In this document: one piece after another, positions 7,832 to 31,523 of the stretch
Layout of the letters: each line of letters begins with the position of its first letter
Numbering within the stretch: position 1 is the stretch's first letter
NCBI RefSeq assembly: GCF_019397265.1
Contig: NZ_CP068985.1
Span: forward strand, 6,750,001 to 6,814,000
Length of the DNA: 64,000 nt
DNA from: Nonomuraea coxensis DSM 45129
GTDB taxonomy: Bacteria > Actinomycetota > Actinomycetes > Streptosporangiales > Streptosporangiaceae
Direction: 5' to 3'
Translations under genes and position numbers: made by a program
Notes under the pieces: generated by a model
Told to the model about the DNA's origin: nothing
Database searches by the model: none
What the model saw: only the letters and a program-made list of their open reading frames with translations

Positions 7832-8563
7832 TTGGGCCAGCACTCCAACAAACCGTTCCTCGCCGGCAAGCGCCGCTGGACCGCCGTCGCAGCGGGTGCC
7901 GCCGTCATCGCCACCGCCTCGGCCTCCGCGTACGCGGCACTCGCCAACGACGACTCCTCCAAGCGCACGGTGACCGCCGCCAAGTCCGCCGCCAAGAGCG
8001 GCACACCCTCGGCGAAGACCGCGAACGAGGCGGGCCGCCAGTCGAGCCCGAAGCCCCTCCCCCCGGCTCCGGAGCCGCCGGCCGCCTCCCACCCGAACCC
8101 CACGACCCCCGCCCCACAGGCCACGACTTCAGAAGGCGCCTCGGCACAGGGCACGACGACAGACGGAGCGTCGCCGCAGGCTACGACGGCGAGCGAGGCC
8201 GGCAGCAAGACCGCCCGGTCCTCCGCCGACGCCGAGCCGGCCAAGCCCGTGGCCAAGAAGCGCAAGGCGAAGGTCATCTCCTCCGGCACCTGCGGCGCCT
8301 CGTACTACGACGAGCCCCAGATGACCGCCAGCGGCGAGCGCTTCGACCCGTCCGCCATGACGGCCGCCCACAAGACCCTCCCCCTGGGCAGCAAGGTCCG
8401 GGTGATCAACCCGAACAACGGCGAGTCGGTCACCGTACGCATCAACGACCGCGGCCCGTACATCGGCGGCCGCTGTCTCGATCTGTCCGCCGCCGCCTTC
8501 TCCGCCATCGGCAACACGAACGCCGGCGTCATGCGCGTGCGCTATCAGGTCCTGGCCCGCTGA
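7832..8563 (+). CDS. Septal ring lytic transglycosylase RlpA-like protein (DPBB domain)
   Basis: A 243-residue secreted or membrane-anchored protein. It has a basic N-terminus, one hydrophobic segment (about residues 17-37), a long Ala/Thr/Lys/Pro-rich linker (about 40-145), then a double-psi beta-barrel of the RlpA family. The barrel motifs are GTCGASYYDEPQMTASGERF, AAHKTLPLGSKVRV, VRINDRGPYI and RCLDLS. The DPBB fold suggests binding or cleavage of peptidoglycan glycan strands; the conserved Asp in NDRGPY is present. Start is TTG 7832, since no ATG or GTG fits before the hydrophobic segment. The start region lies directly behind CCTAGCCAGGACC, a weak ribosome-binding site. Confidence 0.85.
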   Translation: MGQHSNKPFLAGKRRWTAVAAGAAVIATASASAYAALANDDSSKRTVTAAKSAAKSGTPSAKTANEAGRQSSPKPLPPAPEPPAASHPNPTTPAPQATTSEGASAQGTTTDGASPQATTASEAGSKTARSSADAEPAKPVAKKRKAKVISSGTCGASYYDEPQMTASGERFDPSAMTAAHKTLPLGSKVRVINPNNGESVTVRINDRGPYIGGRCLDLSAAAFSAIGNTNAGVMRVRYQVLAR

Positions 8564-21159: not shown

Positions 21160-22641
21160 TCACGCGGCCGGGACGAGGTGTTCGCCGAACCACGTCTCCA
21201 GGGCCGCGTCGAGCGTGTCGTCGGGGCGTCCCGCCCAGGCCACGTACCCGTCGGGCCGCACCAGCACCGCGTCCGGACCGTCGTGCGGCACCACCTCGAC
21301 GCGGTCGTGACGCACCCGCAGCCCGCCATCGGGGTCGAGCAGCACCGCCCGCGCGCGGCCCGCGGGCCCGGACGGCAGGTCGGCGAGGAACCGGCCCACC
21401 AGCGGATGCGCCGGCGCCGGCATCGGATAGGGCAGGTCCGAGCCCGCCAGCAGCCCGGCGATCCTGCGCCGGTTGCCCGCCTCCCCCAGCAGCTCGCCGA
21501 ACAGCTCGCGCAGAGCGGTCACCTCGGGCCCCGGCGCAGCCAGCGCGAGCTGGGCCTTGCTGTGCATCGCGACCCGCTCGGCGGCCGGGCGGCGCTCGGC
21601 GTCGTAGGTGTCGAGCAGGCCGGGCGGCGCCCAGCCCCGCACCTCGGCGGCCAGCTTCCAGGCGAGGTTGACCACGTCCTGGAGGCCCAGGTTGAGACCG
21701 GGCGCGCCCATGGCGGAGTGCACGTGGGCGGCGTCGCCCGCGACGAACACCCGGCCGGCCCGGTAGCGGTCGGCGATGCGGGTGTCGCGCCCGTTGAGCC
21801 GCCTGAGCAGGTGCGGGCCGGGCCCGGTGGGCGGGGCGAGGGGCAGCTCGACGCCGCCGAGCACGCGGGCCAGGCTCTCGCGCAGCTCGCCGAGCGTCAG
21901 GGGGACGTCGTCGTCGGGCGTGGCGACGTCCCACTCCATGCTGCTGATGGTGAAGGTGCCGGTCGCGTCGGGGCCGGGCATGGGCATCAGCGCGTACGCG
22001 CCCCGCTCGGTGCGGTGCCAGGCGTACAGCCCGTACGAGCCCGCGCCCGGCACCTCCAGCTCCATCCGCTCGGGGCGGAAGACCGATCCGGGGATCGTGA
22101 CGTGCGCCGCCCGGCTGACGATGCCGGCCCCGCTCACGCCGGGGAAGCCGATCCCGGCCGTCTTCCTGACCCGGCTGTGGGCCCCGTCGCAGCCGACCAG
22201 GTAGCGGGCGCGCAGCTCGTACGCACCCGCGTCCCGGGCCTCGACCTGGAGGGTCACGCCCGCGTCGTCCTGGGTGAAGCCCGTCAGCTCGTGCCCGCGC
22301 CGGATCTCCACCCCCAGCTCGGCCGCCCGCGTCTCGAACAGCGCCTCCAGGTCCGGCTGCCTGATGCCCATGGCGTGGAGGGGGTTGTCGTCGAGCCCGC
22401 GCAGGTCGAGCGGCATCGCGCCGAAGATGAACGCGGGCACGGCGGCGGTCGCGGCCCCGGCCAGCCCGCGCTGCTCCAGGAGCCGGACGACCTGCCCGAC
22501 GATGCCGTTGGCCTTGGGCTGGTCGCTGGGGCGCGGCAGCCGTTCGAGCACGACCGGCCGGACCCCGGCCAGGGCGAGCTCGCGGGCCAGCATCAGCCCG
22601 TTGGGGCCGGCGCCGGCGATGACGACGTCCATGACGTCCAT
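21160..22641 (-). CDS. FAD-dependent aromatic-ring monooxygenase
   Basis: A 493-residue group A flavoprotein hydroxylase (PheA/TfdB/polyketide hydroxylase type). It has the N-terminal dinucleotide fold VVIAGAGPNGLMLARELALAG, the DG motif YLVGCDGAHSRVRKTAGI, and the second FAD motif GRVFVAGDAAHVHSAMGAPGLNLGLQD. The C-terminal thioredoxin-like domain is present. It would use NAD(P)H and O2 to hydroxylate an aromatic or polyketide substrate. Its start codon overlaps the stop of the TetR gene (TGATG at 22639-22643), so the TetR protein is likely its regulator. A type III PKS gene lies 3.5 kb away. Confidence 0.9.
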   Translation of the reverse strand: MDVMDVVIAGAGPNGLMLARELALAGVRPVVLERLPRPSDQPKANGIVGQVVRLLEQRGLAGAATAAVPAFIFGAMPLDLRGLDDNPLHAMGIRQPDLEALFETRAAELGVEIRRGHELTGFTQDDAGVTLQVEARDAGAYELRARYLVGCDGAHSRVRKTAGIGFPGVSGAGIVSRAAHVTIPGSVFRPERMELEVPGAGSYGLYAWHRTERGAYALMPMPGPDATGTFTISSMEWDVATPDDDVPLTLGELRESLARVLGGVELPLAPPTGPGPHLLRRLNGRDTRIADRYRAGRVFVAGDAAHVHSAMGAPGLNLGLQDVVNLAWKLAAEVRGWAPPGLLDTYDAERRPAAERVAMHSKAQLALAAPGPEVTALRELFGELLGEAGNRRRIAGLLAGSDLPYPMPAPAHPLVGRFLADLPSGPAGRARAVLLDPDGGLRVRHDRVEVVPHDGPDAVLVRPDGYVAWAGRPDDTLDAALETWFGEHLVPAA

Positions 22642-23264
22642 CAGGTCTCCTCAGGTCGAAGGGGGGCGGGGAGGCCGGCGGCGAGCTGCCGCAGCGCCTC
22701 GCGCAGCAACGGCACGAGCGGCACCGGCGGGTCGGCGCGCAGCCAGTGCCCGACGGCCGCCTGCACGGCGGCGGTCGCGGCGGCGGCCACCAGGGACGGG
22801 TACAGGTCGCGGGCGGGATCGGTGCCGGTGCGCTCGGCGACGGCCGCGGTCAGCTCGCCGTCGGCCGCCAGCGCCACCCGCAGCGCCTCTGCCCGGAGGG
22901 CGGGCTCGGTGGACAACATCCTGATGCTCGCCAGCAGCTCGGGGCCGGGCGCGGCGCAGCCTTCGCCCGCGTGCCTGGCCCACGGCTCGGTCAGCGCCTC
23001 GGTCAGCGCGTCCCAGAACGGCTCCGTGGCCGGCCGGGCGCGCAGGGCGGCCACCGCGCCGCGCACGCGGTCGGTGTGGCGGGCGGCGATGGCCTCGTAC
23101 TTGCTGGCGAAGTAGTTGTTGTAGGTGCGGGGCGAGACCCCGGCCGCGGCCGCGATGTCCTCGACGCGGACGTGGTCCAGCCCGCGCTCCAGCGCCAGCC
23201 GCAGCGCGGCCGTCATCAGCGCCTCGCGCGTTTCCCGTTTCTTGCGTTCCCTGAGCCCGCTCAC
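22641..23264 (-). CDS. TetR family transcriptional regulator
   Basis: A 207-residue TetR repressor. The N-terminal DNA-binding domain reads GLRERKKRETREALMTAALRLALERG ... RVEDIAAAAGVSPRTYNNYFASK, with the recognition helix SPRTYNNYF. The C-terminal ligand domain is typical. Start GTG 23264 is preceded by TTGGAGG; an ATG at 23288 is also in frame. It is cotranscribed with the FAD monooxygenase by 1-nt overlap and divergent from the CGNR gene, so an operator is expected between 23265 and 23365. Confidence 0.9.
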   Translation of the reverse strand: MSGLRERKKRETREALMTAALRLALERGLDHVRVEDIAAAAGVSPRTYNNYFASKYEAIAARHTDRVRGAVAALRARPATEPFWDALTEALTEPWARHAGEGCAAPGPELLASIRMLSTEPALRAEALRVALAADGELTAAVAERTGTDPARDLYPSLVAAAATAAVQAAVGHWLRADPPVPLVPLLREALRQLAAGLPAPLRPEET

Positions 23265-23365
23265 GCCCTCCAACCTAGCGAGAATCATGCGTATTCCGCA
23301 AGATTTCGTATCGCGCAATTTTCGGCGTGGACGGCGGACGGTCCGGCCCGCAATAAGTTGGGAGC

Positions 23366-25069: not shown

Positions 25070-26050
25070 CTAGACGGCGAACGCCTTGCGGTACGCGGAC
25101 GGCGACGTCCGCATGGCCCTGGTGAAGTGGCGCCGGAACGTCACCGCGCTCTCGAACCCCACCGCCGCCCCGATCTCCTCCACCGGCGCCCCGGTGGACT
25201 CCAGCATCGGCAGGCTGGCCGCCACCCGCTGCGCGATCACCCACCGCAGCGGGCTGGTGCCGGTCCGCCGGTGGAAGTGCCGGATGAACGAACGCTGCGA
25301 CATCGTCGCCACGCGGGCCAGGTCGGCCACGGTGATCGGCCCGGACAGGTGCTCCAGGGCCCACGCCATCGCCCGCGCCACCGGGTCACCGCCGCCGACC
25401 GGCGCGACCGCCGCCTCGATGAACTGGGCCTGCCCGCCCTCCCGGTGCGGCGGCACGACCAGGCGGCGGGCGACGGCGTTGGCGACGCGCGGGCCGTGGT
25501 CGGTCCTGACGAGGTGGATCAGCAGGTCGAGCCCGGCGGCGCTGCCCGCGCTGGTCAGCACGTCGCCGTCGTCCACGTACAGGACCGAGGGGTTGACCCG
25601 GACGGCGGGGAAGCGCTCCTGGAGCAGGGCGGCGTACCTCCAGTGGGTGGTGGCGGGACGGCCGTCGAGCAGCCCGGCGGCGGCCAGCGCGAAGGCGCCC
25701 GAGCAGATCGACACCATCCGCGCGCCGCGCCCGTGCGCCCGGCGCAGCGCGGCGACGAGCGGGCCGGGCACCGGCCCGCGCACGTCCGCCACCCCGGGCA
25801 CGATCACCGTGTCGGCCTCGGCCAGCGCGTCGAGGCCGTGCCCGGCGGTCATGGTGAAGCCGCCCACCACGCGCAGCGGCTCGGGGGACGACGCGCACAC
25901 CTTGAGGTCGTACCAGGGCACGCCGAACTCCGCCAGCTCGGGACGCGGCAGCCCGAACAGCTCCACCACGCAGCCCAGCTCGAACGGCGCCATCCCGTCG
26001 AAGGCCAGCGCGGCGACCCGGTGCGGCCGGGCCGGGTCGGGGAGGAGCAT
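25070..26050 (-). CDS. GlxA family transcriptional regulator (DJ-1/PfpI + AraC HTH)
   Basis: A 326-residue regulator of the same architecture as the one at 19325: an N-terminal DJ-1/PfpI-like domain (VAALAFDGMAPFELGCVVELFG; MVSICSGAFALAAAGLLDGR) and a C-terminal AraC double HTH (LARVATMSQRSFIRHFHRRTG; VEEIGAAVGFESAVTFRRHF). It is upstream of and codirectional with the PhnB-like gene, which it may regulate, and divergent from the type III PKS operon with about 40 bp between start codons, so it may control that operon. Confidence 0.9.
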   Translation of the reverse strand: MLLPDPARPHRVAALAFDGMAPFELGCVVELFGLPRPELAEFGVPWYDLKVCASSPEPLRVVGGFTMTAGHGLDALAEADTVIVPGVADVRGPVPGPLVAALRRAHGRGARMVSICSGAFALAAAGLLDGRPATTHWRYAALLQERFPAVRVNPSVLYVDDGDVLTSAGSAAGLDLLIHLVRTDHGPRVANAVARRLVVPPHREGGQAQFIEAAVAPVGGGDPVARAMAWALEHLSGPITVADLARVATMSQRSFIRHFHRRTGTSPLRWVIAQRVAASLPMLESTGAPVEEIGAAVGFESAVTFRRHFTRAMRTSPSAYRKAFAV

Positions 26051-26092
26051 GAGCGCATGTTAGCCGGGCCCCTCCAGCGGCAGAGGAAGTGC

Positions 26093-27112
26093 ATGCATAT
26101 CTCGGCGGTACAGACGGTTCTCCCCGATCACCGCTACGAGCAGGCGGAGATCACGGAGGCCTTCGCCCGCCTGACCGACTGTGACGAGGACCTCCTGCGG
26201 CGCTTCCACGAGGCGACCGGCGTGACGGGCCGCAGTCTCGCGCTCCCGCTGGAGGAGTACGCCAAGCTCGACTCGTTCGGCCGGGCCAACGACGCCTACG
26301 TGGAGATCGGCCTCGACCTGACCGAGCGCGCGCTGACGGCGGCGCTCGACCAGGCGGGCGTGGAGCCGAAGAGGGTCGATCACCTGCTGTTCTGCTCGAC
26401 CACGGGCCTCGCCACGCCCTCGCTGGACGCGCGGCTGGCCAAACGGATGGGGCTGCGGCCGGACATCAAGCGGCTGCCGGTGTTCGGGCTCGGATGCGCG
26501 GCGGGGGCGGCCGGCCTCTCCCGCCTGTACGACTACCTGCGCGGCTGGCCCGACCACGTCGCGGTCCTCGTGTGCCTGGAGCTGTGCTCGCTCACCATCC
26601 AGCGCGACGACACCTCGATCGCGAACCTCGTGGCGAGCGGCCTGTTCGGCGACGGCGCGGCGGCCGTCGTGGCGACCGGGCGCGGGCGGGGGCCGGAGGT
26701 CGTGGCGACCCGCAGCCGCCTGTATCCCGGCACCGAGCACCTGATGGGCTGGGAGGTCGGCGGCCACGGCTTCCGCCTGGTGCTGGACGCCGACCTGACG
26801 AGTTTCGTCGAGGAGGTGCTGGCGGGCGACATCCGGGCCTTCCTCGCCGACTACGGGCTGACCCCCGACCAGGTCGGCACGTGGATCTGCCACCCCGGCG
26901 GCCCCAAGGTCATCGAGAAGATCGTGGAGACGCTGGACCTCCCGCCCAAGGCGGTCGAGGTGACCTGGCGCTCGCTGCGCCGGCACGGCAACCTGTCGTC
27001 GGTGTCGGTGCTCAACGTGCTGCAGGAGACGCGCGGCCGGCCGGGGGCGCCCGCGGTGCTGATGGCCCTGGGACCGGGCTTCTCCGCCGAGCTCCTCCTG
27101 CTGCACTGGTGA
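26093..27112 (+). CDS. Type III polyketide synthase
   Basis: A 339-residue chalcone-synthase-fold enzyme that condenses acyl-CoA starters with malonyl-CoA. The catalytic triad is visible: Cys135 in FGLGCAAGAAGLSR, His267 in ICHPGGPKVIEK and Asn300 in RRHGNLSSVSVL. The C-terminal GPGFSAELLLLHW is typical. Start is ATG 26093, with AGAGGAAG just before. It is the first gene of a tightly coupled operon with an ICMT-like methyltransferase and a TIGR03086 protein. In the Streptomyces srs and Bacillus bps systems this pairing makes O-methylated alkylresorcinols or alkylpyrones, so similar products are plausible. The starter unit cannot be read from the sequence. Confidence 0.93.
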   Translation: MHISAVQTVLPDHRYEQAEITEAFARLTDCDEDLLRRFHEATGVTGRSLALPLEEYAKLDSFGRANDAYVEIGLDLTERALTAALDQAGVEPKRVDHLLFCSTTGLATPSLDARLAKRMGLRPDIKRLPVFGLGCAAGAAGLSRLYDYLRGWPDHVAVLVCLELCSLTIQRDDTSIANLVASGLFGDGAAAVVATGRGRGPEVVATRSRLYPGTEHLMGWEVGGHGFRLVLDADLTSFVEEVLAGDIRAFLADYGLTPDQVGTWICHPGGPKVIEKIVETLDLPPKAVEVTWRSLRRHGNLSSVSVLNVLQETRGRPGAPAVLMALGPGFSAELLLLHW

Positions 27113-27621
27113 GCGCCTACCTGGTGCTGATCGGGCTGGTCGTCATGGAACGGCTGGCCGAGCTGGTCGTGGCCCGGCGCAACCTGGCGTGGGCGCGCTC
27201 GCGGGGCGGCGTCGAGCACGGCCGCGGCCACTATCCGTGGATCGTGGCGGCGCACGTGGGGCTCCTGGTGGCCGCGCCGGCGGAGGTGTGGCTGTTCGGC
27301 AGGCCGTTCGTGCCTGCGCTGGGCTGGCCGATGCTCGCCGTGGTGCTGCTCGCGCAGGCGTTGCGCTGGTGGTGCATCGCGACGCTGGGGCGGCAGTGGA
27401 ACACGCGGGTGGTCGTGGTGCCGGGGCTGCCGCTGGTGGGCGGCGGGCCGTACCGGTGGGTGCGGCACCCCAACTACGTGGCCGTCGTGGCGGAAGGGGT
27501 GGCGCTCCCGCTCGTCCACACCGCCTGGCTCACCGCGCTGGTCTTCACCGCGGTCAACGCGGTTCTTCTGACGATTCGGATCACCTCGGAGGACCGGGCG
27601 CTGGCATCCTGTAGCTCATGA
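27109..27621 (+). CDS. Isoprenylcysteine carboxyl methyltransferase (ICMT)-family O-methyltransferase
   Basis: A 170-residue integral membrane methyltransferase with about four helices and the family signature GGPYRWVRHPNYVAVVAEGVALP at the SAM site, plus IRITSEDRAL near the end. It resembles SrsB/BpsB, which methylate a hydroxyl of a type III PKS product at the membrane; this substrate is inferred from context. GTG 27109 overlaps the PKS stop (GTGA), and its stop overlaps the next ATG (ATGA at 27618-27621), so the three genes are translationally coupled. Confidence 0.9.
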   Translation: MSAYLVLIGLVVMERLAELVVARRNLAWARSRGGVEHGRGHYPWIVAAHVGLLVAAPAEVWLFGRPFVPALGWPMLAVVLLAQALRWWCIATLGRQWNTRVVVVPGLPLVGGGPYRWVRHPNYVAVVAEGVALPLVHTAWLTALVFTAVNAVLLTIRITSEDRALASCSS

Positions 27622-28166
27622 GAGAAGAGTTGCTGCCGATGCTGCGCGGGGCCGCCCAGCGCACCGCCGACCTGGTCACGAGCATCCCCGAGGAGGAGTT
27701 CGGCCGGCCGACGCCGTGCCCGGAGTTCGACGTCAGGGGGCTGGTCAACCATCTGGAGTGGGGCGCCTCGCTGTTCGAGTCGGTCGCGGGCGGCGGCGGG
27801 TTCCTCCCGCCCAAGGAGTACACCGGCGACTTCCCCGAGCGGGTCGAGCGCATGCTGATCGCCTGGGACAAGCCGGAGTCGTGGGAGGGCGTCAGCGAGG
27901 CCATGGGCGGGCTGCCCCGCATCGTCCTCGCCCACATGGCGCTCACCGACCTGGTCGCCCACGGCTGGGACCTCTCCCGGGCGACCGGGCGCGGCTACGA
28001 GGTGGAGGAGGCGACCGCGGCCAGGCTGCTCGCCTTCGCCAGGGACATGGCGCCGATCGGCCGGGCGCGCGGCGCCTTCGGCGAGGAGGTCTTCGTGCCG
28101 GACGACGCGCCCACGCTGGAGAGGTTCCTCGGCCTCATCGGCCGGGATCCGGCCTGGAGACCGTGA
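27618..28166 (+). CDS. TIGR03086 family protein (DinB/MDMPI-like)
   Basis: A 182-residue four-helix-bundle protein of the mycothiol-dependent maleylpyruvate-isomerase-like/DinB group. Matches include FGRPTPCPEFDVRGLVNHLEWGA (first metal His), HMALTDLVAHGWDLSRATGR (two further metal His residues) and a C-terminal GAFGEEVFVPDDAPTLERFLGLIGRDPAW, which is nearly diagnostic. It may bind a divalent metal and act as a thiol-linked transferase. As third gene of the PKS operon it may tailor or detoxify the product. Its 3' end overlaps the convergent asparagine-synthase-like gene by 32 bp. Confidence 0.88.
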   Translation: MREELLPMLRGAAQRTADLVTSIPEEEFGRPTPCPEFDVRGLVNHLEWGASLFESVAGGGGFLPPKEYTGDFPERVERMLIAWDKPESWEGVSEAMGGLPRIVLAHMALTDLVAHGWDLSRATGRGYEVEEATAARLLAFARDMAPIGRARGAFGEEVFVPDDAPTLERFLGLIGRDPAWRP

Positions 28167-29910
28167 TCGGCTCCAGCCCCTCGGGCTGCTTGCCGGGGTG
28201 GAGCCCGGTGAGGAGGCAGCTGACGGTGTAGAGGTGCCAGGCGAGCGCGGGCTTCTTGACCACCGGGTCGGCGAACAGGGCCCGCGCCTCGTCGGGGTTC
28301 ACGATGGGCGCGAGCGCGTCGAGGCTGCCGAGCACCTGCCGGCGCAGCACGTCGGTGAGCGCCGGTCCCGGGCTGGTCCGCCAGCTCCAGCCGCCGCCGG
28401 TCTTCACGGTCGGCATGTGCGGCGGCGGGACGTGGGTCCAGGGCAGCCGCCGGGTCAGGCCCTCCGCGAAGCGCCACGGCTTGCCCTCGATCGGCACGTC
28501 ACGCAGGCGGGGCGCGAAGCGCAGGACGAGCTGGTAGATCACCTCTTCCGACAGCCGCCAGCGCTGGTCGAGGGCGAGCGCCGCGCGCACCACCCGGTTG
28601 TCCAGGAACGGCCGCACCGGATCGCCGCGGCGCAGCGCCCCGGCGCGCGCGCTGGCCTGCCAGCGGCCGACCTTGTACCAGATGTAGATGTGGTCGAGGG
28701 CCTCCAGCCGGTCGGCCCGCTCCTGCCAGGGGCGGGCCAGCTCGCGGGCGTGCTCGTTGGCCGCGGCCGTGAACAGCTTGTCGTCCTTGACGAAGGTCGT
28801 GGTGATCCTGCGCAGCAGGGCCTTGTCGCCGAGATCGGTCTGCAGGAGGTTGAGGCTGCCCGCGCGCAGCGTCTCGCCGCTCTGCCCGGACATGGTGGGC
28901 TTGCCGGAGTACGGCAGGTAGCTCACGATCGACTCGTACGCCGAGGTCATGCCCTCGCACGTGCGCAACGTCTCCCAGGCGCGGGCCAGCGGGTGCTCCA
29001 CCAGCACGGCGTCCTTCGCGGCCGTCTGCGGCGGCGCGATGACCGTGTGCTCGACCTTCAGCTCGGCGGCGATCCGGCGCGCGATGATCACGTCGGGGTG
29101 GGTGTCGAGGCCGTTCGTCGTCACCCTGAACGGCACCCGCGCGGCGTGCAGCAGCGCCGCCAGGATCCGGGTGTCGCGCCCGCCGGTCAGCGCCAGGTTG
29201 ACCGGCTCGCCCAGGGAGCGCAGCGGCGCGACGGTGGCGAGCAGCGCGTCGGCCAGCTCGTCCACGGCGGCCCGCTTGGCCCGGCGGCTCGCCGGGGGCG
29301 GCGCCGCCTGCGGCAGCGGGGTCTCGGTGATCACGCGCCGGCCGTCGCGCACCTCGACGCGCGTGCTCGGCCGCAGCGCCGACACCCCCTTGTACGGCGT
29401 CTCGTCCGACAGGAAGAACCCCTGACGGGCCATCGTCTGGAGCGCCAGGACGTCGTGTTCGACGCGGTCGCCCGGCTGGGCCACCAGGTGCACGAGCAGG
29501 GCGCGGCTGCCGACGAGGTGCAGGTCGGGCGTCTCGGCGTGGAAGACGGGGCACACCCGGTTGATCGCCGTGCCCGCGCCCAGCTCGCCGTCGCGGGCGT
29601 ACCAGGAGGAGAAGCAGCCGCCCAGCGTCTCGCCGGGGCCGCCGGGCAGCCGGGCGACGTCGGCGGGGTCGGCCAGGTGGCCGTTCAGCCCGATGACCCG
29701 GCCGCCGTGCTCGGACAGCAGCGGCGGCTGCCGGAGGTCGTCGGGCTCGTTGGTCCAGCCGAGCAGGGAGACGCCTCTTCCGTGCCACTCCTTGCCGCGG
29801 ATGACGTCGGGGGGCACCGGGAAGGCGAGCTCGATGACGGAACGGGCCTTCTCCAGGACATGGAGAGGGATCTCACCGTGCTTCGCGGCTATACCGAGGT
29901 AGACGCGCAT
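28135..29910 (-). CDS. Asparagine synthase-like ATP pyrophosphatase protein
   Basis: A 591-residue protein with the C-terminal asparagine synthetase (PP-loop) domain: NLALTGGRDTRILAALLHAA is the ATP-binding loop, with MTSAYESIVSYLPYSGKPTMSGQSGE, FLDNRVVRAALALDQRWRLS and PIEGKPWRFAEG further on. The N-terminal part resembles the class II glutaminase fold (GRVIGLNGHLADP) but the sequence starts MRVYLG and has no Cys2, so it should not use glutamine as nitrogen donor. Such relatives make amide bonds through acyl-AMP (for example beta-lactam synthetase or lasso cyclase). No precursor peptide or NRPS genes are adjacent. Starts at GTG 29919 or 29946 are also possible. Divergent from the vWA gene. 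Confidence 0.85.
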   Translation of the reverse strand: MRVYLGIAAKHGEIPLHVLEKARSVIELAFPVPPDVIRGKEWHGRGVSLLGWTNEPDDLRQPPLLSEHGGRVIGLNGHLADPADVARLPGGPGETLGGCFSSWYARDGELGAGTAINRVCPVFHAETPDLHLVGSRALLVHLVAQPGDRVEHDVLALQTMARQGFFLSDETPYKGVSALRPSTRVEVRDGRRVITETPLPQAAPPPASRRAKRAAVDELADALLATVAPLRSLGEPVNLALTGGRDTRILAALLHAARVPFRVTTNGLDTHPDVIIARRIAAELKVEHTVIAPPQTAAKDAVLVEHPLARAWETLRTCEGMTSAYESIVSYLPYSGKPTMSGQSGETLRAGSLNLLQTDLGDKALLRRITTTFVKDDKLFTAAANEHARELARPWQERADRLEALDHIYIWYKVGRWQASARAGALRRGDPVRPFLDNRVVRAALALDQRWRLSEEVIYQLVLRFAPRLRDVPIEGKPWRFAEGLTRRLPWTHVPPPHMPTVKTGGGWSWRTSPGPALTDVLRRQVLGSLDALAPIVNPDEARALFADPVVKKPALAWHLYTVSCLLTGLHPGKQPEGLEPITVSRPDPGR

Positions 29911-30044
29911 GTCCGTCACATCTATCTCATTTGCTCCGATTGTCACAACTGATCACGTATCGATCGCGGTTTGTGCTCGCTTGCGTCACCGCCCCGGCGA
30001 ACGACAGGTCAGGTCCGTCGTAAGAGGTCGGAGGTGGTTGAGAG

Positions 30045-31523
30045 ATGAGAATCCGCCCGTTGGCCATCGGCGCCGGCTTGGTCACCGTCCTCGTGCTCGC
30101 CGGGTGCGGGGGCTCCGGCGGCAGCGCGGGAAGCGCCGAGAACGCCAACGCCCCGAGGGCGTCCCAGTTGCCTGTCCGTCCGGAGTCGACCAGCGCGGAC
30201 GAGCAGGACGAGCAGGAGACGGCCACGGCCCAGATCTCCACGTTCGCGCTGGACGTGGACACCGCCTCGTACGGCTACGCCCGCCGCGCCCTCGGCGAGG
30301 GCCGCTGGCCCGAGCCGGACCGGATCCGCCCCGAGGAGTGGGTCAACGCCTTCCGCCAGGACTACGAGCAGCCGCCGGACGACGGGTTCACGGTGCACGT
30401 GGACGGCGCCCTGCTGCCCGGCGGCCGGGACGAGGCCGTGCTGCGGGTGGGCCTGCAGACCCGCGCCACCGAGGCCGCCGCGCGCCGGCCCGTCAACCTC
30501 ACCTTCGTGGTCGACGTGTCCGGCTCGATGGCCGAGACCGGCCGCCTCGACCTGGTGAAGTCCTCGCTGCGCACGCTGCTCGACCAGCTCGCGCCCGGCG
30601 ACCAGGTGTCCATCGTGGCCTTCAGCGACGAGGCCGAGGTGCTCGCCTCGATGACCCCGCTCACCGCCCGCGCCGAGCTGCTCGCCGCCGTGGACCGGCT
30701 CGACGTCGAGGGCGGCACCAACCTGGAGAGCGGCCTCGTCACCGGCTACCAGGAGGCGGCCAAGGCGTTCCGCCCCGCCGCCACCAACCGCGTCATCCTC
30801 CTCTCCGACGGCCTCGCCAACCAGGGCGAGACCGCGTGGCAGGGCATCCTCGCCCAGGTGAAGGAGTACGCGGGCCGCCAGGTCACGCTGCTCACCGTCG
30901 GCGTCGGCCGCGAGTACGGCGACACCCTGATGGAACAGCTCGCCGACAACGGCGACGGCATGGCCGTCTACGTCAGCTCCCAGGAGGACGCCGACAAGCT
31001 CTTCACCACCCAGCTCACGGCCACCGTCGAGCTGCGCGCCCGCGACGCCAAGGCGCAGGTGGTCTTCAACCCGTCCGTCGTCGACACCTACCGCCTCATC
31101 GGCTACGAGAACCGCGCCCTGTCCACCGAGGAGTTCCGCGACGACAGCCGCGACGGCGGCGAGATCGGCCCCGGCCACGCCGTGACCGCCCTCTACGCGC
31201 TCAAGCTCAAGCCGGGGGCGCGCGGGCAGCTCGCCCAGGCCACGGTCCGCTGGCAGGACCCCGACACCCGCGAGGCGTCCGAGGCCGGCAAGTCGCTGCG
31301 GGCCGCCGACCTGGCCAAGGGCGTCTGGGACAAGGGCACGCCGGTCCGGCTCCAGGTGGACGTGCTGGTGGCGGCGTTCGCGATGTACCTGCGGGAGCGC
31401 GAGGCGTTCGGGCTCGGCCTGCCGGACCTCGCCGAGCACTCCTCCCGGCTCGCCTCCCTGTCGGAGGACCCGATGGTGACCGAGCTGACGACGCTCATCG
31501 ACAAGGCCCGCTCGGTCGGCTGA
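30045..31523 (+). CDS. von Willebrand factor A domain lipoprotein (YfbK-like)
   Basis: A 492-residue lipoprotein: hydrophobic signal and lipobox LVLAGC (Cys22), a Ser/Ala/Glu linker, then the N-terminal YfbK domain (FALDVDTASYGYARRALGEG, RIRPEEWVNAFRQDYEQP), the vWA domain with the MIDAS motif DVSGSM, GGTN and LSDG, and a C-terminal DUF3520-type domain. The MIDAS residues are intact, so it likely binds Mg2+ and protein ligands at the cell surface. Start ATG 30045 is preceded by GGAGG. It is divergent from the asparagine-synthase-like gene and followed by a hydrolase gene. Confidence 0.93.
   Translation: MRIRPLAIGAGLVTVLVLAGCGGSGGSAGSAENANAPRASQLPVRPESTSADEQDEQETATAQISTFALDVDTASYGYARRALGEGRWPEPDRIRPEEWVNAFRQDYEQPPDDGFTVHVDGALLPGGRDEAVLRVGLQTRATEAAARRPVNLTFVVDVSGSMAETGRLDLVKSSLRTLLDQLAPGDQVSIVAFSDEAEVLASMTPLTARAELLAAVDRLDVEGGTNLESGLVTGYQEAAKAFRPAATNRVILLSDGLANQGETAWQGILAQVKEYAGRQVTLLTVGVGREYGDTLMEQLADNGDGMAVYVSSQEDADKLFTTQLTATVELRARDAKAQVVFNPSVVDTYRLIGYENRALSTEEFRDDSRDGGEIGPGHAVTALYALKLKPGARGQLAQATVRWQDPDTREASEAGKSLRAADLAKGVWDKGTPVRLQVDVLVAAFAMYLREREAFGLGLPDLAEHSSRLASLSEDPMVTELTTLIDKARSVG

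Follow-up and report, generated by a model that had tools for sequence, protein, structure and literature searches.

What makes up the functional unit when three genes overlap? The question is raised by positions 26093-28166 of the stretch analysed here, a 64-kb window of the single-contig, 9.07-Mb genome of Nonomuraea coxensis DSM 45129, where genes for a type III polyketide synthase (PKS; this copy is called PKS-B), an ICMT-like membrane methyltransferase (MT) and a TIGR03086 protein follow one another. The original prediction for this DNA described three open reading frames (ORFs) joined by four-base overlaps, which the coordinates confirm (GTGA at 27109-27112 and ATGA at 27618-27621), and read them as one unit. 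Our answer is narrower: positions 26093-27621 are, on balance, probably a two-gene phenolic-lipid operon, and its MT could be exchanged for the one encoded in a second operon known from other Nonomuraea genomes, one MT serving both synthases. The observation behind this reading is that nearly every genome of the genus has one MT, a rule both testable and stricter than expected in a PKS-MT pair that is otherwise of a familiar type.

The genus set comprised 54 genomes, and a PKS orthologue was defined by at least 69% identity; 45 genomes have one, the copy of genome G195 being frameshifted. The orthologues of at least 74% identity returned from the named collection all come from Nonomuraea or '[Actinomadura] parvosata'. 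Neighbours were counted with tblastn, since the gene caller missed some MTs (G012, for instance, does have an MT). The second operon consists of PKS, MT and flavoprotein genes of the pkq/agq type, together with a divergent UbiA prenyltransferase gene and a geranylgeranyl-reductase-like gene, and was recognised by its flavoprotein in 22 of the 54 genomes, the flavoprotein being split across contigs in G269 and G179. The flavoprotein search used a threshold of 1e-40 and scored 39 first-look candidates per genome; in the window genome, no match was found at that threshold among the 39 of 93 candidates scored.

Sixteen genomes with PKS-B also carry the second operon, and in 15 of these the MT beside PKS-B is gone, while G300 has kept it. 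N. deserti and N. montanisoli are examples of species with both operons. The remaining 29 PKS-B genomes are without the second operon, and 28 of them keep the MT, the exception being G304. This pattern, the METHYLTRANSFERASE rule, holds without exception in 35 of 35 PKS-B genomes with a completeness of 90% or more and a contamination of 5% or less. With G304 (63% complete) excluded from the association tests, the counts of MT loss against the second operon, [[28,1],[0,15]], give a Fisher value of 7e-11 (kinship not corrected), and a self-coded Pagel-type test favours the dependent over the independent model (likelihood ratio 36.7, p 2e-7), although several rates reached their bounds. The same test applied to TIGR03086 as a control trait detected no correlation with either the second operon (p 0.53) or the MT (p 0.34). 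On a tree of PKS and VWA proteins, each trait changes at least eight times. Over the whole genus set, the MT is present in exactly one copy in 48 genomes, in two copies in G300, and in none in five (G299, G303, G304, G305 and G311), three of which (G303, G305 and G311) also have no PKS match at 1e-60. G264 keeps its MT, and its second operon is a wreck, with a PKS match to residue 253 only and both the MT and the flavoprotein gone. Among the records listed, literature searches on TIGR03086, on Nonomuraea type III PKSs, on a shared methyltransferase and on the known systems yielded nothing on this complementarity.

Several observations weigh against the reading of one MT shared by two operons. 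Only four independent pairs could be drawn on the strongly supported branches (concordant average 3.9, none opposed), too few for significance in this test, and the tree was built from PKS and VWA proteins and is not a species tree. G300 carries both MTs, in an assembly with 9% contamination, and G304, at its low completeness, has neither an MT nor any trace of the second operon. G299 shows just a flavoprotein fragment (residues 62-336) and no MT match; because the fragment stops 2 bases before the contig end, the rest of its second operon is out of view. Outside the genus, G075, G147, G161 and G183 match the PKS at about 58-68% identity and show no match to the MT.

The absence of the MT at PKS-B reflects losses, likely by multiple separate deletions, as can be read from the scars left behind. 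Set against the MT gene of G100, the locus of G269 retains some 40 bases from the start and some 60 from the end, with the middle gone. G284 and G289 keep about 40 start bases and an inner piece of 28-29 bases, followed by a jump beyond TIGR03086, while G299 has about 14 start bases and about 40 end bases of the MT gene plus pieces of TIGR03086, and G222 about the first 34 bases. Since the junctions differ among these scars, several separate deletions are likely. No certain MT remnant was seen at the other MT-less loci compared (G003, G217, G309, G255, G234, G275 and G304). The MTs of G157 and G243 were considered as genes broken by a TGA, and this was rejected, as the aligned MTs have no internal stop. 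In G195 (locus L089), PKS-B and the MT seem frameshifted and are recovered by tblastn in two pieces, through either decay or sequencing error.

The pair that is being broken up is old. The MT belongs to the ICMT family (PF04140, 103.2 bits) and lies directly downstream of the PKS, and in the wider family set a match to it was found in 153 of 297 genomes, one in each. Among the non-genus loci of the closest, B-type PKS relatives, the PKS is followed by the MT in eight of nine (L068 is without it), and PKS plus MT alone is thus the conserved core; the flavoprotein of cluster c2 directly follows PKS-MT in none of these nine. In a quick tree with SH-aLRT support only, the B-type and second-operon MTs are separated with support 99, which makes the PKS-MT pair an old one; its co-inheritance predates the genus. 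This is stronger evidence for the pairing than the overlap of the two genes. A simple gene caller called an MT in 20 genus loci and set its start 4 bp within the PKS in 17 of them, and GTGA stands at the PKS end in 28 of the 28 MT-bearing loci checked. Nevertheless, four-base gene overlaps are frequent in genomes of such kind and the PKS ends in Trp-stop, so the overlap is weak evidence of coupling, and we rejected the GTGA as a sign of it since it follows merely from that ending.

How would these observations fit together in the cell? PKS-B would extend a long-chain acyl-CoA-type starter, probably to an alkylresorcinol or alkylresorcylic acid, and the ICMT-like MT would O-methylate this product; we infer the substrates, the product and the methylation position. 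With PKS-B alone, as in the window genome, the synthase would keep its own MT; with both operons present, one MT would suffice for two synthases, and the copy beside PKS-B would be deleted. One MT serving both synthases would be the simplest reading of the loss pattern. The B-type and second-operon MTs (28 and 27 rows) have 71 invariant positions in common, and only 3 fixed differences separate them, so sharing would demand no new specificity.

A different explanation, which we regard as doubtful, is a shift of function: in two-operon genomes PKS-B would have taken on a role in which its product needs no methylation, letting its MT decay, and in single-operon genomes PKS-B and its MT would substitute for the missing pathway. 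The same complementarity would be expected, and it agrees with this explanation that the MT lost is the PKS-B copy in all 14 two-operon genomes in which one MT is left and the second-operon MT is seen. In keeping with sharing, PKS-B is intact in the 16 genomes without the MT and remains under purifying selection there, with a median dN/dS of 0.29 (14 genomes) versus 0.21 where the MT is kept (26 genomes), from pairs that are non-independent; the higher value also fits a PKS no longer needing methylation. Against such a shift stand the small number of fixed differences between the MTs and the retention of the catalytic triad and of W220 in all 44 genus genomes with an unbroken PKS-B.

If the MT is indeed shared, gene loss would here follow pathway sharing and not pathway loss. 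We would go one step further only tentatively: the two phenolic-lipid pathways may merge at methylation, with one MT acting in trans for two non-identical synthases, in which case the PKS-B product could enter the hydroxylation and prenylation steps of the second operon and contribute to a mixed quinone/hydroquinone pool, while single-operon species would stop at a methoxyresorcinol. As noted in PMC9927152, a role as alternative carriers in respiration has been proposed for polyketide quinones of actinobacteria. The near-perfect rule amounts to a natural experiment over about 50 species, and it predicts a tailoring enzyme common to two type III PKS pathways, the loss of which should alter both product families in two-operon species.

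The kind of product can be approached through the synthase itself, which scores 79.6 and 51.9 bits against the Pfam models Chal_sti_synt_N and Chal_sti_synt_C and has an unbroken Cys135-His267-Asn300 triad. Its best PDB match is M. tuberculosis Pks11 (371 bits, residues 4-339), which has the same catalytic residues and the same Trp, its Trp230 aligning with W220 of the window protein. The gene context of Pks11 differs from that of the window. The corresponding position, that of ArsB Trp281 and MMAR_2474 Trp230, is W in 44 of 44 PKS-B rows and in 26 of 26 rows of second-operon PKSs. PMC5916927 describes this Trp as shared by FtpA, SrsA, PKS10 and PKS11 and as required for resorcinol formation in ArsB, and PMC6274091 reports that the ArsB W281G mutant changes from resorcinol to pyrone products. 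An O-methylated alkylresorcinol-type lipid would be the likeliest product.

A bpsAB-like product, namely an alkylpyrone methyl ether in place of a resorcinol, is rather unlikely. The conserved Trp and the ArsB mutant argue against it, yet the PDB entries name Pks11, the closest solved relative, an alpha-pyrone synthase in spite of the same Trp, which counts against the resorcinol assignment; the Trp is therefore not a decisive resorcinol marker, and its use as a clean one is weakened. Furthermore, a two-gene PKS-MT operon without a hydroxylase is the layout of bpsAB in Bacillus subtilis. The window operon is like bpsAB in this layout and differs in its PKS, which is actinobacterial, Pks11-like and equipped with the resorcinol-type Trp.

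The original prediction had compared the PKS and the MT to srsAB and bpsAB, and the nearest structure, the Trp and the co-inheritance all agree with a pair of that kind. With srsAB(C) of S. griseus and pkqABC of M. smegmatis and Streptomyces sp. MNU77, the window shares a PKS that has the Cys-His-Asn triad and the Trp at the resorcinol position, followed by an ICMT-like MT. In srsABC and pkqABC the third gene encodes a flavin oxidoreductase, whereas in the window it encodes the TIGR03086 protein. The title of the study on SrsB reportedly speaks of the decarboxylative methylation of alkylresorcylic acid by SrsB, which would put the MT step directly after the PKS. For pkqABC, the gene order PKS-MT-oxidoreductase is given in PMC9927152. 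The second Nonomuraea operon (for example L082:4739-9531, with its MT at 7991-8521, and 20 further Nonomuraea loci) has a layout like that of the agq cluster of Actinoplanes missouriensis, the source of alkyl-O-dihydrogeranyl-methoxyhydroquinones, a likeness in gene order; PMC10896814 describes the AgqA products as prenylated and hydroxylated. In agq a UbiA gene lies beside the PKS, whereas a scan of the genes flanking the window PKS revealed no UbiA, and the flavoprotein and geranylgeranyl-reductase-like genes of the second operon are likewise missing from the window operon. Elsewhere in the family, other genera have PKS-MT-flavoprotein loci of a related kind (L073, L074, L076, L077, L091 and L092). 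The other type III PKS of the window genome (L198:7495-8535, at 2.83 Mb) was considered as a second operon and rejected, as it is DpgA by score (649.6 bits, cut-off 425); its presence suggests that the genome may hold a cluster for a dihydroxyphenylglycine-containing (glycopeptide-type) antibiotic.

The third gene is, as the original prediction held, of the mycothiol/DinB-type family. Its product scores 47.5 bits against Pfam MDMPI_N and 120.8 bits against NCBIfam TIGR03086 (cut-off 83), and its predicted fold is that of MDMPI/DinB proteins (mean pLDDT 96.6), with 2nsg as the best match (TM 0.66 by query). In this predicted fold it resembles MDMPI (2nsf/2nsg) and DinB-fold mycothiol S-transferases, and it differs from those enzymes in being single-domain, at 16% identity. 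H45, D111 and H115 are invariant in 44 aligned rows, and from the ligands of MDMPI we take them to be a probable metal site.

That this protein is a functional partner, with all three genes forming one unit, was the original prediction and now appears improbable; in such a unit it would modify, detoxify or transport the methylated product. The four-base overlaps in the window, the clear fold with its invariant residues, and the four genomes in which TIGR03086 still lies directly beside the PKS despite the lost MT (G003, G179, G217 and G269) speak for it, as does ClbS, a DinB-fold protein that PDB titles describe as the self-resistance protein of a biosynthetic cluster. In contrast, the synteny check found the MT beside the PKS in 29 of the 45 genus genomes, TIGR03086 in 20 and both in only 16, and outside the genus, where 22 genomes match TIGR03086 at 1e-55, it lies beside a PKS or MT in none (contigs and coordinates compared). 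By these counts, we rejected the three genes as a conserved unit. TIGR03086 also lies at a distance of about 4-7 kb in G212 and G240 and elsewhere in the genome in G255, and in G305 the AraC, TIGR03086 and VWA genes are present and neither PKS nor MT was found. Further against one unit are the missing correlation in the Pagel test and the near exclusion of two types of TIGR03086 copy, whichever PKS is present: among the 54 genomes, 3 have both a copy of at least 62% identity and one of 51-57% elsewhere, 21 only the first, 21 only the second and 9 neither (Fisher 2.6e-5, kinship not corrected). This near exclusion would fit a separate, roughly single-copy role.

TIGR03086 is an accessory or bystander outside the conserved core. 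It is probably co-transcribed with the operon yet separable from it, with a function of its own that is probably metal- and thiol-linked. The case cautions that overlapping genes of one operon may not form one pathway. Most of the 51-57% copies (L199-L218) are divergent from another AraC-type regulator, a recurring pair. The AraC gene as a partner of TIGR03086 was not built on, since, as read from the sequence, those copies mostly adjoin a different AraC-type gene.

The original prediction also noted a TetR-linked aromatic hydroxylase about 3.5 kb away and suggested it as a possible SrsC. The two genes are present, with the hydroxylase 3.45 kb from the PKS on the minus strand and the TetR gene starting at a TTG at 23318 in the ORF list and at 23216 by the gene caller (Table 1). 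The role could not be upheld: the hydroxylase is accompanied by its own TetR and falls in the rifampin-monooxygenase group (323 bits, under the cut-off of 800), whereas the second-operon flavoprotein at the PkqC position is geranylgeranyl-reductase-like (109 bits, under the cut-off of 158.8), and we rejected the gene as an SrsC on account of this different flavoprotein group. Matches of at least 66% occur in 17 other genus genomes; in 14 of these the gene shares a contig with the PKS and lies 5-24 kb downstream of it, and in 3 the contigs differ, while the window hydroxylase, unlike those 14, lies upstream of the PKS on the opposite strand. The closest relatives of the window genome, G207 and G237, gave no match of at least 66%. 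The gene is therefore a loose regional neighbour of the PKS, and this linkage is the only observation that speaks for the SrsC idea. That a hydroxylase, whether unlinked or close by like this one, turns the methylated resorcinol into a quinone is very improbable, given its group, its own regulator, the lack of a match at that level in both closest relatives and the lack of a second-operon flavoprotein match among the candidates scored in the window genome, against which only its place on the PKS contig in 14 of the 17 genomes can be set.

An AraC/DJ-1-type regulator gene, absent from the original prediction, starts 42 bp from the PKS and probably sets the expression of the operon. In the tblastn table, it is close to the PKS start in 29 of the 45 genus loci. 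The 42-bp spacer (26051-26092) contains a conserved GCATGTTAGC element, and 32 of 33 loci listed read ATGTTAG there. The element also occurs at some loci without an adjoining AraC gene.

Table 1. Features of the PKS-MT locus and its surroundings in the 64-kb window.
Feature	Position	Strand	Remarks
Type III polyketide synthase (PKS-B)	26093..27112	+	ATG start, 339 aa, catalytic C135/H267/N300, W220
ICMT-like membrane methyltransferase (MT)	27109..27621	+	GTG start, 170 aa, GTGA overlap with PKS
TIGR03086 (MDMPI/DinB-fold) protein	27618..28166	+	ATG start, 182 aa; invariant H45, D111, H115
AraC-family regulator with DJ-1/PfpI domain (FtrA-like)	25070..26050	-	Divergent from PKS
Conserved GCATGTTAGC element	26055..26064		In AraC-PKS spacer
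Asparagine-synthase-like gene	28135..29946	-	Convergent to TIGR03086; syntenic context
YfbK-type VWA protein	30045..31523	+	Syntenic anchor for the locus
Rifampin-monooxygenase-like FAD hydroxylase	21160..22641	-	SrsC candidate of the original prediction; judged outside the system
TetR/MftR-type gene adjoining the hydroxylase	22641..23216	-	Coordinates by gene caller, start uncertain; judged outside the system

Downstream of the operon, the 3' ends of the TIGR03086 gene and the convergent asparagine-synthase-like gene overlap by 32 bp (28135-28166), and the same spacing of -32 recurs in many relatives.

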